From Alloscardovia omnicolens DSM 21503 (lineage in GTDB: Bacteria; Actinomycetota; Actinomycetes; Actinomycetales; Bifidobacteriaceae): DNA of 35,943 nt. A program made the translations under genes and the position numbers. The notes beneath the pieces were generated by a model that was not told the DNA's origin, searched no databases, and saw only the letters and a list, made by a program, of their open reading frames with translations. Positions within the stretch are counted from its first letter, which is position 1. The number at the start of each line of letters is the position of its first letter. This document shows positions 14,993 to 18,737 of the stretch, in pieces. The DNA lies in the NCBI RefSeq assembly GCF_000420505.1, contig NZ_ATVB01000016.1:1-35943 (forward strand). The letters run 5' to 3'.

Positions 14993-17242
14993 TTATGAAC
15001 GCTTACGACGTGTGTGTTGTTCAATGAGTAATGATTGGCTATCTTGCAAAGGATTGCCTTGTTCATCTGTGCTGTGACGCTCATACGAACCGTCTGACAA
15101 CATGTGCCACGAACTTGTTGCATCAGACATTTGCGTATCGATATAGTCGAGCAGTTCCTGAATTTGTGCAGGATCTGTGATGCGAACCAATGCTTCAACT
15201 CGACGGTCGAGATTGCGGTGCATCAAGTCTGCAGAGCCAATCCATACTTCAGGACCGCTCATAGGACCTTCACCAATTTGCGGACCTTGAGAGTTAGCAA
15301 AAGCAAAGATGCGACTGTGCTCTAGGAAACGCCCCAAAATGGAGCGTACACGAATAGTGTCGCTAAGACCAGGAACGCCAGGCTTTAGAGCGCAAATGCC
15401 GCGTTCAACAATATCGATTTTTACTCCTGCTTGGCTAGCGCGATACAAAGCATCAATGCACTTTTCATCGACAAGGGAATTAACCTTAATCTTAATCCAG
15501 GCTTCTTTACCGTCGCGGGCTGCCTGTTCTTCGCGCTGAATGCGCTCAATAAGGCCAGTACGAATGGTTCGAGGAGCCACAAGCAAACGATGGAAACTCG
15601 ATTTTGGAGCATATCCAGACAGCTGGTTAAACAAGCGTGTTAAATCTTGACCAACTACAGGATCGCAGGTGAGCAAACCCATATCCGTATACATACGTGC
15701 GGTCTTTGGATTGTAATTACCCGTTCCAATATGGCAGTAACGGCGCAAACCATCGTTCTCGCTGCGCACCACCATCGACAGTTTGGAATGAGTCTTCAAA
15801 CCCACAATGCCATACACCACGTGCACGCCCGCGCGTTCAAGCTTACGAGCCCACGCAATATTGGCTTCTTCATCAAATCGAGCTTTAATTTCTACCAAAG
15901 CCAAAACCTGTTTGCCAGCATGAGCAGCGTCAATCAAAGCATCAATAATCGGCGAATTACCGGAGGTTCGATACAAGGTTTGCTTAATGGCAAGAACCTT
16001 CGGATCGTTCGCGGCTTGCTCTAAGAATGCCTGCACAGAGGTAGAGAAGGAGTCGTATGGATGGTGCAGCAAAATATCGTTTTCGCGGATTGCAGCAAAA
16101 ATATCTTGCGCACGACTGGTCTCTACCTGAGCAATCTGTCGGTTCGTTGTTGGAATAAAGGACTTATACTTCAAATCTGGACGGTCAATGCCGTGTAATT
16201 CAAACAGGCAGGTTAAGTCCAGCGGAGCTGGCAAACGATAAACTTCAGATTCATCGACCCCCAGCTGAGTAATGAGTACCTTACTGAGATAAGGGCTCGT
16301 AACATCCGAGAGCTCCAAACGAATAGGAGGTCCAAAACGACGACGCAGAAGCTCTCGCTCCATAGCATTGAGCAGGTTTTCTGCATCATCTTCTTCAACG
16401 TCAATATCTTCGTTACGAGTTAAACGGAAAGCGCGTGCTTCCTTAATCGTCATTCCTGGGAAAAGCGTTTCGATGTGGCTGAGCACAAGGTTTTCCGTAG
16501 TAATAAAACCATGGCGACGCTCTGCCTGATCATCAAGTGGTGCATTCTCATTGGTTAAGCGGTCTACTGGGTAGAGACGAGGTAAATTATCTGGAATTTT
16601 CACGCGAGCAAAATGAGTTTTACCGCTTGCTGCATTCTCTACTAATACAGCCAGATTCAACGAATTACCGGAAATATAAGGGAATGGGTGTGCTGGATCA
16701 ACCGCCAAAGGAGTAAGTACCGGGAAAATATAGCGGCGATAGACTTTAGTAAGTTTTTCTTGCTCAGAAGGAGTAAGATCTGCCCACTTGAGCATGACTA
16801 TATGTTCCTTCTCTAAAGCAGGAAGCAAAGTGTCTTTGAAGTAGTGTGCATGCTCGTCTTGCAGACGATGCGCGCCCTCAGTCAGTTCTCGCAACTGCTG
16901 ACGAGCGCTTAAACCACTTGCACTTGGCACAGCAATACCAGAATTAATGCGGCGTTTGAGACCTGCTACACGCACCATAAAGAATTCATCGAGATTGCTA
17001 GCAAAAATAGCTTCGAAATTCGTGCGTTCCAGTAAAGGAAGTGTCTCGTCTTGAGCTAATTCCAAAACGCGCTTATTAAATTTAAGCCAGCTGAGCTCGC
17101 GATCGTAGAAACGATCGTCGGGCAGTGGTTTGTAATCCGCGGTAAGAGCGGAATACTTATCTTCTTTTTCGGTTTCTGCAATATGCTCAGCAATTTGATT
17201 GCGAAGTATTTGCTTGCTCGGACCAGTAAATTGTTGCACCAT
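14993..17242 (-). CDS. ppk1: Polyphosphate kinase 1
   Basis: This 749-residue enzyme makes polyphosphate from ATP reversibly. All PPK1 parts are present: the N-terminal domain with [16 protein letters not shown] (about 48-63) and [14 protein letters not shown], a head domain, and two PLD-like catalytic domains. These include [16 protein letters not shown], the autophosphorylated His485 in [11 protein letters not shown], and [20 protein letters not shown]. It is full-length compared with the family (about 690-750). ATG 17242 has only a weak SD-like region upstream. It leads an operon with mutT1 and a hypothetical gene. Upstream (17276-17323) are four 12-bp tandem repeats, and before those a structured RNA and terminator on the same strand. 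Phosphate- or stress-responsive control is therefore plausible. Confidence 0.95.
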
Positions 17243-17275
17243 AGCTCTAGTCTATTAGGTTGCCTGACTTTTTAA

Positions 17276-17323
17276 CTTTATGAGTTTCTTTATGCGTTCC
17301 TTTATGAATTCCTTGATGAATTT
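17276..17323 (-). promoter_or_regulatory. Four 12-bp tandem repeats upstream of ppk1
   Basis: On the plus strand the units are CTTTATGAGTTT, CTTTATGCGTTC, CTTTATGAATTC and CTTGATGAATTT, head to tail. They begin 34 bp before the ppk1 start. A period close to one helical turn places the units on one face of the helix, as in arrays bound by OmpR/PhoB-type regulators. No regulator can be named from sequence. Confidence 0.5.
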
Positions 17324-17344
17324 CGGAAGTTGGTGTGGGGTGAA

Positions 17345-17381
17345 AACATAAAAATACCGACCCCCGAAGGGGTCGGTATTT
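17345..17381 (-). terminator. Strong intrinsic terminator
   Basis: AAATACCGACCCC (17352-17364) and GGGGTCGGTATTT (17369-17381) form a perfect 13-bp stem around CGAA (TTCG read on the minus strand, the stable tetraloop). On the minus strand TTTT and, two bases on, another TTTT follow, so it terminates the RNA above or attenuates transcription into ppk1. Confidence 0.85.
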
Positions 17382-17512
17382 ACCAAGTACTTAGTGGAAT
17401 CTCTGCACAACTTCATTGTTCTGGCGGTAAAGTCTGTTCGTCCGCCCTACTCATTCAGCTCTTCCGTGGCTGCTACATGTGTGGGCCCCACTCTTAAGTT
17501 TTGTTCTTGGTA
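17345..17512 (-). ncRNA. Candidate structured RNA with its own promoter and terminator
   Basis: On the minus strand a strong promoter (17547-17518) is followed by about 165 nt with no ORF and ends at a strong terminator. The ends close on each other. UACCAAG (17512-17506) pairs with CUUGGUA (17387-17381). Inside it, ACUUA and GUGG (17499-17495, 17491-17488) pair with CCACUAAGU (17397-17389), with a 3-nt bulge. Within this stem lie small hairpins: CAGC/GCUG (17472-17456), GGCGG/CCGCC (17446-17423) and ACAA/UUGU (17419-17407). That is a closing stem with a multi-branch interior. I do not recognise it as tmRNA, RNase P or SRP RNA. It could be a free small RNA or a leader element controlling ppk1, which starts about 100 nt downstream on the same strand. 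Confidence 0.55.
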
Positions 17513-17517
17513 CTTTT

Positions 17518-17547
17518 ATTATGCACTCTTTACCGTTATTTTGCCAA
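17518..17547 (-). promoter_or_regulatory. Promoter of the structured RNA
   Basis: Minus strand: TTGGCA (17547-17542), an 18-nt spacer, CATAAT (17523-17518), with TG one base before the -10. Transcription should begin near 17512, exactly where the closing stem of the RNA starts. That coincidence supports both calls. Confidence 0.6.
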
Positions 17548-17725
17548 ATATTTTGGCTATTTTTTATGAAGAAAAATGGGAATCTTCACAATTGAAAATT
17601 TACTTCTGATGTTGAGCGAAAGTATGAATATTTTTGCTCACTCTATGAGTGAAAAAATCTAGAAATGTTTGATTCTGTGCAGTTCATAGAAGAGTACTGA
17701 ATTTATGTGGATAACTCGGCGTGTT

Positions 17726-17742
17726 TTCACATTGGTTCACAT
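17726..17742 (+). promoter_or_regulatory. TTCACAT direct repeat, tad copy 1
   Basis: TTCACAT (17726-17732), TGG and TTCACAT (17736-17742) repeat with a 10-bp period. A third near-copy CTCACAT lies at 17749-17755. A 14-nt block TCCACARTAGAAAT follows at 17776-17789. The same arrangement recurs at 20978-21042 in front of the pilin genes. It is probably the binding site of a regulator shared by both tad transcripts. Confidence 0.55.
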
Positions 17743-17870
17743 ATTCCTCTCACATGGATTTCTGAGTTTATATGCTCCACAGTAGAAATATGACTCACTA
17801 TTATTCGCTACAACACTCAGTGTTCTCAACGTCCTCAGCACGCACGCAGGGCGAGGAGCACAAACTGACT

Positions 17871-18737
17871 ATGCCGCCTACAACGGCGGCTCCCGCAACG
17901 GCGGTCTCATCGGTAATCCTTCTTCCTATTGTGGGTGCTAGCGGAGGCTTAGGTGCAAGTACTTGTGCCCTGCAGTTAGCTCGACTGTGCGCGCACGAAG
18001 GTTTACGCACATGCGTTATCGATGTGGATTTTTCCGGTGGCGGTCTTGATGTGCTTGCTGGATGCGAAGAACAGGAAGGTCTGCGCTGGCATAATATTCA
18101 AGCGCCACTGGGGTCTATTGATGCTGAAGGTTTTCTGAACGAACTGATTCAATGGGACGGCATACCTCTTTTACCGTATTCCCCGTGGGAAAATCGAGAT
18201 ACTCAATGGTGGGAGATAAAAGCAGTTTTTGAAGCTACCAGTGTGCACAGCGATATTATTATTTGCGATTGCGGACGCACTGTGCCCAATAAAGTTATTG
18301 CTGCGTGGAAATCCACCCGAGCTCAACTGACCATTATTCCCGTTATTCTTATGCAGTGCACAACCTTAGGTATTGCTCGCTGCTCTGTGCTGTTGGAATG
18401 TATGCGCCACAATATGCATCCGCATTTTTCCGACTGTGAGTCTGCGCTACTATTCGAATCCGCTTGCTCGATAAATAAGTTAGTAAGTAAAACACGCAAA
18501 CGAAACAGCCATATGTCAGTTGCACAAGTAGAAGATTTTCTTCACGCTCGCATATATGGTTCTCTTCCCAGCGATCCCCGTATAACTCGTAGCGATGCTC
18601 AGGGCTGGCCTCTTCCACAAGCAAAGCCTGAATATGAACGAGTATTACAAGCATTCATTCGCGAATATTGCCTGACGAATAGCCCCGATAAATCTGGTAC
18701 CACACACAGAAATACGCGAGGAAGGAGAGTGGCATGA
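17871..18737 (+). CDS. CpaE/Ssd-like MinD-family ATPase of the Tad pilus
   Basis: This 288-residue P-loop protein is related to CpaE and actinobacterial Ssd, which position the Tad secretion machine. The deviant Walker A reads GASGGLGAST: the signature lysine of MinD/ParA proteins is absent, as in actinobacterial Ssd proteins. A Walker A'-like acidic strand CVIDVDFSGGGLDVL and a Walker B-like DIIICDCGR follow. The frame is open from ATG 17772, but 17772-17789 falls inside the duplicated control segment. ATG 17871 has GAGGAG (17853-17858) upstream and begins right before the conserved core, so it is preferred; ATG 17790 remains possible. Its stop overlaps the tadA start by 4 nt. Confidence 0.75.
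   Translation: MPPTTAAPATAVSSVILLPIVGASGGLGASTCALQLARLCAHEGLRTCVIDVDFSGGGLDVLAGCEEQEGLRWHNIQAPLGSIDAEGFLNELIQWDGIPLLPYSPWENRDTQWWEIKAVFEATSVHSDIIICDCGRTVPNKVIAAWKSTRAQLTIIPVILMQCTTLGIARCSVLLECMRHNMHPHFSDCESALLFESACSINKLVSKTRKRNSHMSVAQVEDFLHARIYGSLPSDPRITRSDAQGWPLPQAKPEYERVLQAFIREYCLTNSPDKSGTTHRNTRGRRVA

Follow-up and report, generated by a model that had tools for sequence, protein, structure and literature searches.

A conserved structured RNA gene between ppk1 and ssd of the Bifidobacteriaceae, a candidate counterpart of the polymerase-binding RNA Ms1

The 35,943-nt contig NZ_ATVB01000016.1 of Alloscardovia omnicolens DSM 21503, analyzed over its full length and referred to here as the window, carries an RNA gene of ∼165 nt on the minus strand at 17513-17352. 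The gene lies between ppk1 and ssd, the latter encoding a CpaE-like protein of a tad pilus locus. Sequence comparison shows a family-wide conserved, structured RNA gene, the existence of which is close to certain. The best explanation is an independently transcribed small RNA (sRNA) gene representing the Bifidobacteriaceae counterpart of the RNA Ms1 and most likely orthologous to it, though strongly diverged, a reading with an estimated probability of about 0.55. The main elements of the locus are the following.

17542 to 17547, minus strand: −35 element TTGGCA, with an 18-nt spacer to the −10 element
17518 to 17523, minus strand: −10 element CATAAT; the promoter shows 10 of 12 consensus matches in total
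17381 to 17513, minus strand: RNA body of 133 nt, with the predicted start at ∼17511-17513 and the end set at the 3' strand of the closing stem
17352 to 17381, minus strand: predicted intrinsic terminator of 13 bp with a TTCG loop and a T-rich tail
14993 to 17242, minus strand: ppk1, polyphosphate kinase 1 (NF003922, TIGR03705), a neighbor outside the RNA gene
17772 to 18737, plus strand: ssd, CpaE-like ATPase (best match TIGR03815 with 98.7 bits, below the curated cut-off of 154.45)

The promoter given in the original prediction is recovered as TTGGCA and CATAAT; the extended −10 element claimed along with it is unscored by the promoter tool, and GTGCATAAT is readable as one given a one-base shift. 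Taken alone, the window promoter is within chance: the 600 bp scanned contain 1 promoter-like site, versus a shuffle mean of 1.5. Terminator-like sites number 2 in the region versus 0.4 expected. The proposed 13-bp TTCG-loop terminator holds, and a rule-based terminator is present in 80 of 82 distinct homologues. A NANAAT −10 element is found in 64 of these homologues, 57 of which show a TTG 16 to 18 nt upstream of it, and the remaining 18 contain another AT-rich −10 element (mostly TAnATTAT). Random positions of these loci satisfy the −10 rule in 79 of 2,140 cases and show both elements in 9. Promoter and terminator keep to the strand of the RNA in both gene orientations. The start had been placed at the closing stem, and the predicted start indeed falls at the foot of this stem. 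The claimed lack of an open reading frame (ORF) applies to the minus strand of the interval, where no ORF of at least 60 amino acids is listed, but not to the plus strand, where a 71-amino-acid ORF (17394-17609) overlaps the RNA gene. No conserved ORF is present on the RNA strand, the longest closed ORF having a median length of 21 amino acids (range, 4 to 62) in the 82 distinct homologues. These signals predict that the gene is a transcription unit of its own.

A DNA search of 99 genomes, with the source genome included, detects the RNA in 17. The covariance model R1, built from those 17 sequences (16 distinct), matches the window at 17381-17517 with 97.3 bits (E, 4.1e-25). R1 matches 159 of 189 Bifidobacteriaceae genomes, comprising 146 of the 161 genomes of good quality, and extends over 8 of 16 genera. 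Each positive genome contains one match except G154, which contains two and is flagged as 8% contaminated. The eight negative genera are represented by small genomes (0.6 to 1.8 Mb), many of them incomplete. Genomes that are negative at 95 to 99% completeness despite an RNA-positive genus are G100, G110, G122, G178, G204, G213, and G025. Beyond the family, the 13 matches in 198 genomes of the order, for which the number of Bifidobacteriaceae is known in part, are all family members, and the only match in 296 genomes of the class is the window's own genome.

The comparative structure consists of a rod of four helices (P1a, P1b, P2, and P3) with internal loops, followed by a three-way junction and two hairpins. 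The 16-bp interrupted closing stem of the original prediction can be read as P1a, P1b, and P2, and its three interior hairpins are reduced to two. All of the following elements lie on the minus strand.

17506 to 17512, minus strand: closing stem P1a, 5' strand UACCAAG, paired with 17387-17381 (helix 1)
17381 to 17387, minus strand: closing stem P1a, 3' strand CUUGGUA (helix 1, 7 pairs)
17496 to 17499, minus strand: P1b, 5' strand ACUU, paired with AAGU at 17392-17389 (helix 2, 4 pairs; short in the window's genus)
17488 to 17492, minus strand: P2, 5' strand AGUGG, paired with CCACU at 17397-17393 (helix 3, 5 pairs)
17481 to 17485, minus strand: CCCAC, common to Ms1 according to row counts and profile alignment
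17480 to 17483, minus strand: P3, 5' strand, paired with 17409-17406 (helix 4)
17456 to 17472, minus strand: first head hairpin P5, CAGC/GCUG in the window's genus (helix 5)
17423 to 17446, minus strand: second head hairpin P4, GGCGG/CCGCC with AGACUU in the loop (helix 6)
17397 to 17411, minus strand: conserved 3' motif GUUGUGCAGAGAUUC, the most conserved stretch of the first 17 sequences

The structure of 37 pairs was drawn by hand from one of the 17 sequences. In the sequence-only alignment of these 17, 86.3% of the pair cells are standard versus 79.1% in shuffles, and two-sided changes occur in 15 pairs versus 8.5. Further pair types, one of the five covariation measures, are not above shuffles in this alignment (143 of 500 as high), and sliding of the helix partners lowers the pairing to 27 to 48%. 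With 45 model-fitted sequences, the standard cells amount to 92.5% versus 84.5% in shuffles. Covariation had been named as a check on the original prediction, and compensatory changes are present, with two-sided changes in 20 of 37 pairs versus 11.0 in shuffles; on all five measures, none of 500 shuffles is as high. P5 shows two-sided changes in all 6 pairs, with 81.9% of the cells paired in the 45 sequences and 60.0% in the 17-sequence alignment, and one pair of P4 is GC in 16 and AU in 20 of the 45. P3 is almost invariant, so that covariation tests this helix hardly at all. The first 17 sequences agree in 10 successive columns of the motif GUUGUGCAGAGAUUC, which is variable in more distant ones. 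CCCAC is present in 103 of 107 alignment rows of the bifidobacterial RNA, the row sets of which overlap in genomes, and in 61 of 61 Ms1 rows. Folding of the RNA body of the window alone is not above shuffles (z, −0.71; 50 of 200 fold equally well), and a longer stretch that includes the terminator folds at a z of −2.91. The single fold and the promoter of the window are within chance; what exceeds chance is the conservation of the RNA and its covariation. Family-wide conservation, the promoter and terminator that follow the RNA, and the compensatory changes support the independent structured RNA that had been proposed.

The Rfam search suggested earlier yields one tRNA only at the gathering score over the whole window and nothing at the RNA gene, and up to an E value of ≤10 there is no credible match to it. 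A tmRNA or tRNA at this position is rejected for lack of a match, and so is the raiA type considered in the original prediction, with no Rfam raiA match in the window. The Ms1 model RF02566 leaves the RNA gene unmatched at the gathering score. This model is a narrow test, matching two of five Ms1 loci offered (L175 and L176) and missing L172, L199, and L200. The two matched loci are of the mycobacterial type, and the three others represent three other lineages. Within the literature searched, only PMC9130861 and PMC11077062 join Ms1, 6S RNA, and a word beginning with Bifidobacteri-, none combines Bifidobacteriaceae with 6S RNA, and among the matches listed, no title or abstract reports this RNA. 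In the annotations excerpted from PMC4338058, none of 11 sRNAs of B. animalis lies beside polyphosphate kinase. A table for B. breve in PMC5746004 contains RNase P, tmRNA, 4.5S RNA, and three riboswitches, and the RNAs described in an excerpt of PMC10832533 belong to a plasmid.

Ms1 is described in PMC4191392 as a 6S-like RNA that binds the RNA polymerase core in mycobacteria and Streptomyces and forms a long hairpin with a bubble plus two short hairpins. According to PMC9130861, its location in 824 species was obtained from synteny phrases, HAD hydrolase and CpaE among them. A passage of the same paper, from 2022, states that Bifidobacterium contains no Ms1-sized intergenic region and links this absence to small genomes. 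A passage of PMC11077062, from 2024, expects RIP-seq to reveal a unique polymerase-bound RNA in B. bifidum.

The Ms1 seeds of the present analysis were drawn from 60 stretches upstream of ssd matches from the order, the class, and one genome of the family. The position of MTS2823, scr3559, and the HAD gene beside ssd served as a lead and was then tested, including on these ssd-flank loci. A motif search in the ssd flanks provided Ms1 cores, from which the model R2 (20 sequences) and then R3 (61 sequences) were obtained. R2 matches Ms1 in 31 of the 60 loci at an E value of <0.001, among them L175 and L176, which lie outside its training set and are called Ms1 by Rfam. Among genomes of the order, R2 matches 55 of 198 (E, ≤0.1) and R3 matches 90 of 297 (E, ≤0.01), with no Bifidobacteriaceae among the matches of either model. 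Both models find many more Ms1 loci than RF02566 and could be used as the seed of a wider family. Covariation in the R2 set indicates an interrupted rod, a three-way junction, and two hairpins. One sample contains 15 Ms1-positive genomes of the order, 12 of them with an ssd match, and in all 12, Ms1 is found at most 1105 bp from ssd on its 5' side (11 divergent and 1 codirectional). The distance is at most 490 bp in 8 of the 12, too short for a HAD gene to lie between. In the genome G076 (L167 and L200), Ms1 is directed toward ssd; orientation flips thus occur among Ms1 loci too.

The bifidobacterial RNA shares several features with Ms1 (RF02566; MTS2823 and scr3559). Both are stand-alone genes, and the bifidobacterial RNA occupies the same place beside ssd, on the ssd 5' side. 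The distribution of the two is complementary: the Ms1 models hit no Bifidobacteriaceae, and R1 hits only Bifidobacteriaceae. Covariation indicates a similar architecture, with the interrupted rod, the three-way junction, and the two hairpins in both; whether individual helices correspond is judged from the profile alignment. No weight is given to equal length, because the Ms1 core lengths were set by our own trimming. The sequence-only profile alignment with a lenient gap cost (2, 0.1), a second choice introduced after the first strict-gap test and kept in later profile tests, scores 19.6 versus 10.1 ± 1.75 in 2,000 block shuffles (maximum, 18.6), and RNase P windows used as a control reach at most 18.0 (n = 76). 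The alignment is colinear and joins CCCAC with CCCAC, the second hairpin with the second hairpin, and UGCA with UGCA. Of 21 base pairs with both sides aligned, 7 are exactly in register and 11 are within one base, with much of this register supplied by the second hairpin. An equal register is reached by none of 150 shuffles, 140 coding windows, and 76 RNase P windows, the last two sets consisting of overlapping windows (steps of 30 and 6 columns) that are not independent. A subset of 11 Ms1 sequences from one family of the order (f20) scores 37.7 versus 25.7 ± 2.9, and the remaining 50 score 18.1 versus 9.4 ± 1.9 (60 shuffles each).

A second group of results weighs against a relationship with Ms1. 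R1 gives no matches on the 60 ssd-flank loci, and with filters off on 30 Ms1 loci, it gives 3 matches, none of them at Ms1. In the reverse direction, on 30 bifidobacterial loci with filters off, R2 produces 47 weak matches, none spanning the RNA, and R3 produces 61, two of which reach into the RNA in its 5' half (E, 5.2 and 8.8), about as many as chance gives. Across 121 genomes of the family, R3 has 7 matches with an E value of ≤1 (best, 0.19), none of them at the RNA. The profile alignment with strict gaps is weak, with 6 of 300 and later 10 to 18 of 600 shuffles as high. With lenient gaps, the raw score is attained by 5 of 140 coding windows from ppk1, and by 12 of 140 with an unweighted profile. 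The 14 class-level Ms1 sequences alone are not distinguished (12.5 versus 10.9 ± 1.6; 60 shuffles), a fading that is as expected of similarity lost with distance and equally of a weak signal. The Ms1 3' motif ACGCNUGGU is absent from the bifidobacterial RNA, so that of the conserved Ms1 motif pair ACCCACG(C/T)G ... ACGCNUGGU, CCCAC is common to both RNAs and the 3' part is not. Unlike Ms1, which is divergent from ssd in 11 of 12 genomes, the bifidobacterial RNA shares its strand with ssd in 29 of 48 named loci. Mycobacterial Ms1 is also much longer (model of 304; about 300 nt). The argument from position is affected by three Ms1-positive genomes without an ssd match and by the Ms1 seeds themselves, which were drawn from ssd flanks. 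As for a flanking HAD-IB hydrolase, no such gene is present in the window interval 17242-17772; the lack of a HAD hydrolase between RNA and ssd is a difference from Ms1 as described, although none fits in 8 of 12 Ms1 loci of the order either. On balance, the link to Ms1 is favored over its absence.

Beyond ssd, the window contains tadA and further ORFs, the small ORFs after tadA having no NCBIfam match, and the ssd-tadA region looks like a tad locus. The RNA lies within ∼1.1 kb of ssd in 46 of the 48 named loci holding both, at 2.6 and 6.0 kb in the other two, and is divergent from ssd in 19 (the window's genus included) and codirectional in 29. Of the 62 ppk1 loci holding the RNA, 14 are without an ssd match in the stretch. 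Locus L302, of B. catenulatum subsp. kashiwanohense JCM 15439, also carries the RNA. The closest PPK1 relatives of the window, with 91 to 92% identity, come from Alloscardovia species. TAATAG and TAGAGC immediately precede the ATG of ppk1 (17243-17257, minus strand), with similar GAATAGAGT in relatives, which suggests a promoter of ppk1's own with a very short leader. Imperfect tandem repeats of the TTCATAAAGGAA type are found between the RNA terminator and ppk1 (17276-17320, minus strand). Upstream of the RNA, GTGAAGATT occurs at 17581-17589 (minus strand) and likewise at L003, L004, L005, L007, and L080 to L084. It takes fixed distances (−71/−72 or −48/−49 from the model start) in 10 of 83 distinct upstream stretches, and these occurrences are confined to three genera, including that of the window; the control gives 28 of 4,280 random stretches. 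The element may be a site for a regulator or belong to the leader of ssd. As an upstream element common with Ms1 it was rejected, with 1 of 61 Ms1 stretches compared to the 10 of 83 here, and it is unused as evidence.

Other explanations differ widely in probability. That the locus holds a conserved DNA element or chance repeats and no RNA gene is hardly credible: the chance-level fold and promoter of the window would agree with it, but not the two-sided changes in 20 of 37 pairs or the promoter and terminator, which keep to the strand of the RNA whichever way the gene points. Only slightly less remote is the leader or attenuator of ppk1 offered in the original prediction. In the window, the RNA and ppk1 share a strand, with ∼110 bp between the end of the RNA terminator and the start of ppk1, and 20 of the 62 RNA-holding loci among 80 named ppk1 loci show the same orientation (the other 18 have no RNA within the fetched stretch). 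In 42 of the 62, the RNA is on the opposite strand and points away from ppk1. Furthermore, at L287 and L291 the distance of the RNA to ssd is 414 and 423 bp and that to ppk1 is 3.7 and 3.9 kb, so that it travels with ssd there, and at L073 to L076 and L082 it lies 385 to 1279 bp from the ssd match in 11-kb stretches without ppk1. Because the RNA mostly points away from ppk1 and elsewhere stays by ssd, an attenuator is rejected as the general explanation. The 6S-like RNA of the original prediction survives in modified form, through the place of Ms1 and the resemblance to it. A bifidobacterial 6S RNA proper, with binding of the sigma holoenzyme and templating of product RNA, is improbable. Its size near 160 to 180 nt, its rod with internal loops, and its stand-alone gene would suit this assignment, as would the lack of any Rfam 6S RNA elsewhere in 61 genomes of the family. 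The 6S model RF00013 matches none of these genomes and does not match the RNA gene, whereas RNase P, the positive control, is detected in 59 of the 61 and RF00013 itself in 5 of 14 control genomes. The head of 6S RNA is a single distal stem, from which the branched head found here differs, and the ssd neighborhood is of the Ms1 type.

Among the readings that keep a separate RNA gene, the most serious is a family-specific RNA that is not homologous to Ms1 and lies in the ssd-ppk1 interval by chance, for example, an antisense regulator that acts in trans or a scaffold that binds proteins. It is a possible but clearly less probable explanation than kinship with Ms1. The failure of the covariance models to cross-detect agrees with it, as do an orientation to ssd that is not fixed and strongly conserved loop motifs, which are expected for any binding site. 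It leaves unexplained the place, the architecture, and the in-register profile alignment common to Ms1, as well as the complementary distribution. A separate class of polymerase-associated RNA, restricted to the Bifidobacteriaceae and not derived from Ms1, may instead have taken the place and role of Ms1, a variant considered unlikely. A precedent for a polymerase-binding RNA of its own in a lineage without Ms1 or 6S RNA is CoRP of Corynebacterium glutamicum, which, in a comparison by its description in PMC11077062 only, differs from the bifidobacterial RNA in its two fragments of 318 and 198 nt and its tRNA flanks.

The relationship with Ms1 is retained as the preferred reading, and the RNA is classed as an Ms1-like RNA and positional counterpart of Ms1. 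It is not filed as an Ms1 member because membership features were looked for and not found, with RF02566, R2, and R3 all leaving it unmatched. Ms1 binds core polymerase without the primary sigma factor and accumulates in stationary phase. The bifidobacterial RNA would be expressed from its own promoter to its own terminator as a transcript of ∼165 nt and, like Ms1, would bind the RNA polymerase core; we infer both transcription and polymerase binding from the comparisons above. The "missing" RNA that binds polymerase in the Bifidobacteriaceae may be this one.

The finding provides an exact, conserved candidate gene in a group named as being without a known 6S RNA or Ms1. If the RNA binds the polymerase core, the idea of a loss connected with small genomes fails for the Bifidobacteriaceae. 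A further case would be added to the proposal that each species has one abundant RNA bound to polymerase, and Ms1 would be able to diverge past the reach of covariance models and yet keep its place. The RNA would also offer a handle on growth-phase control in these widely used probiotic bacteria.
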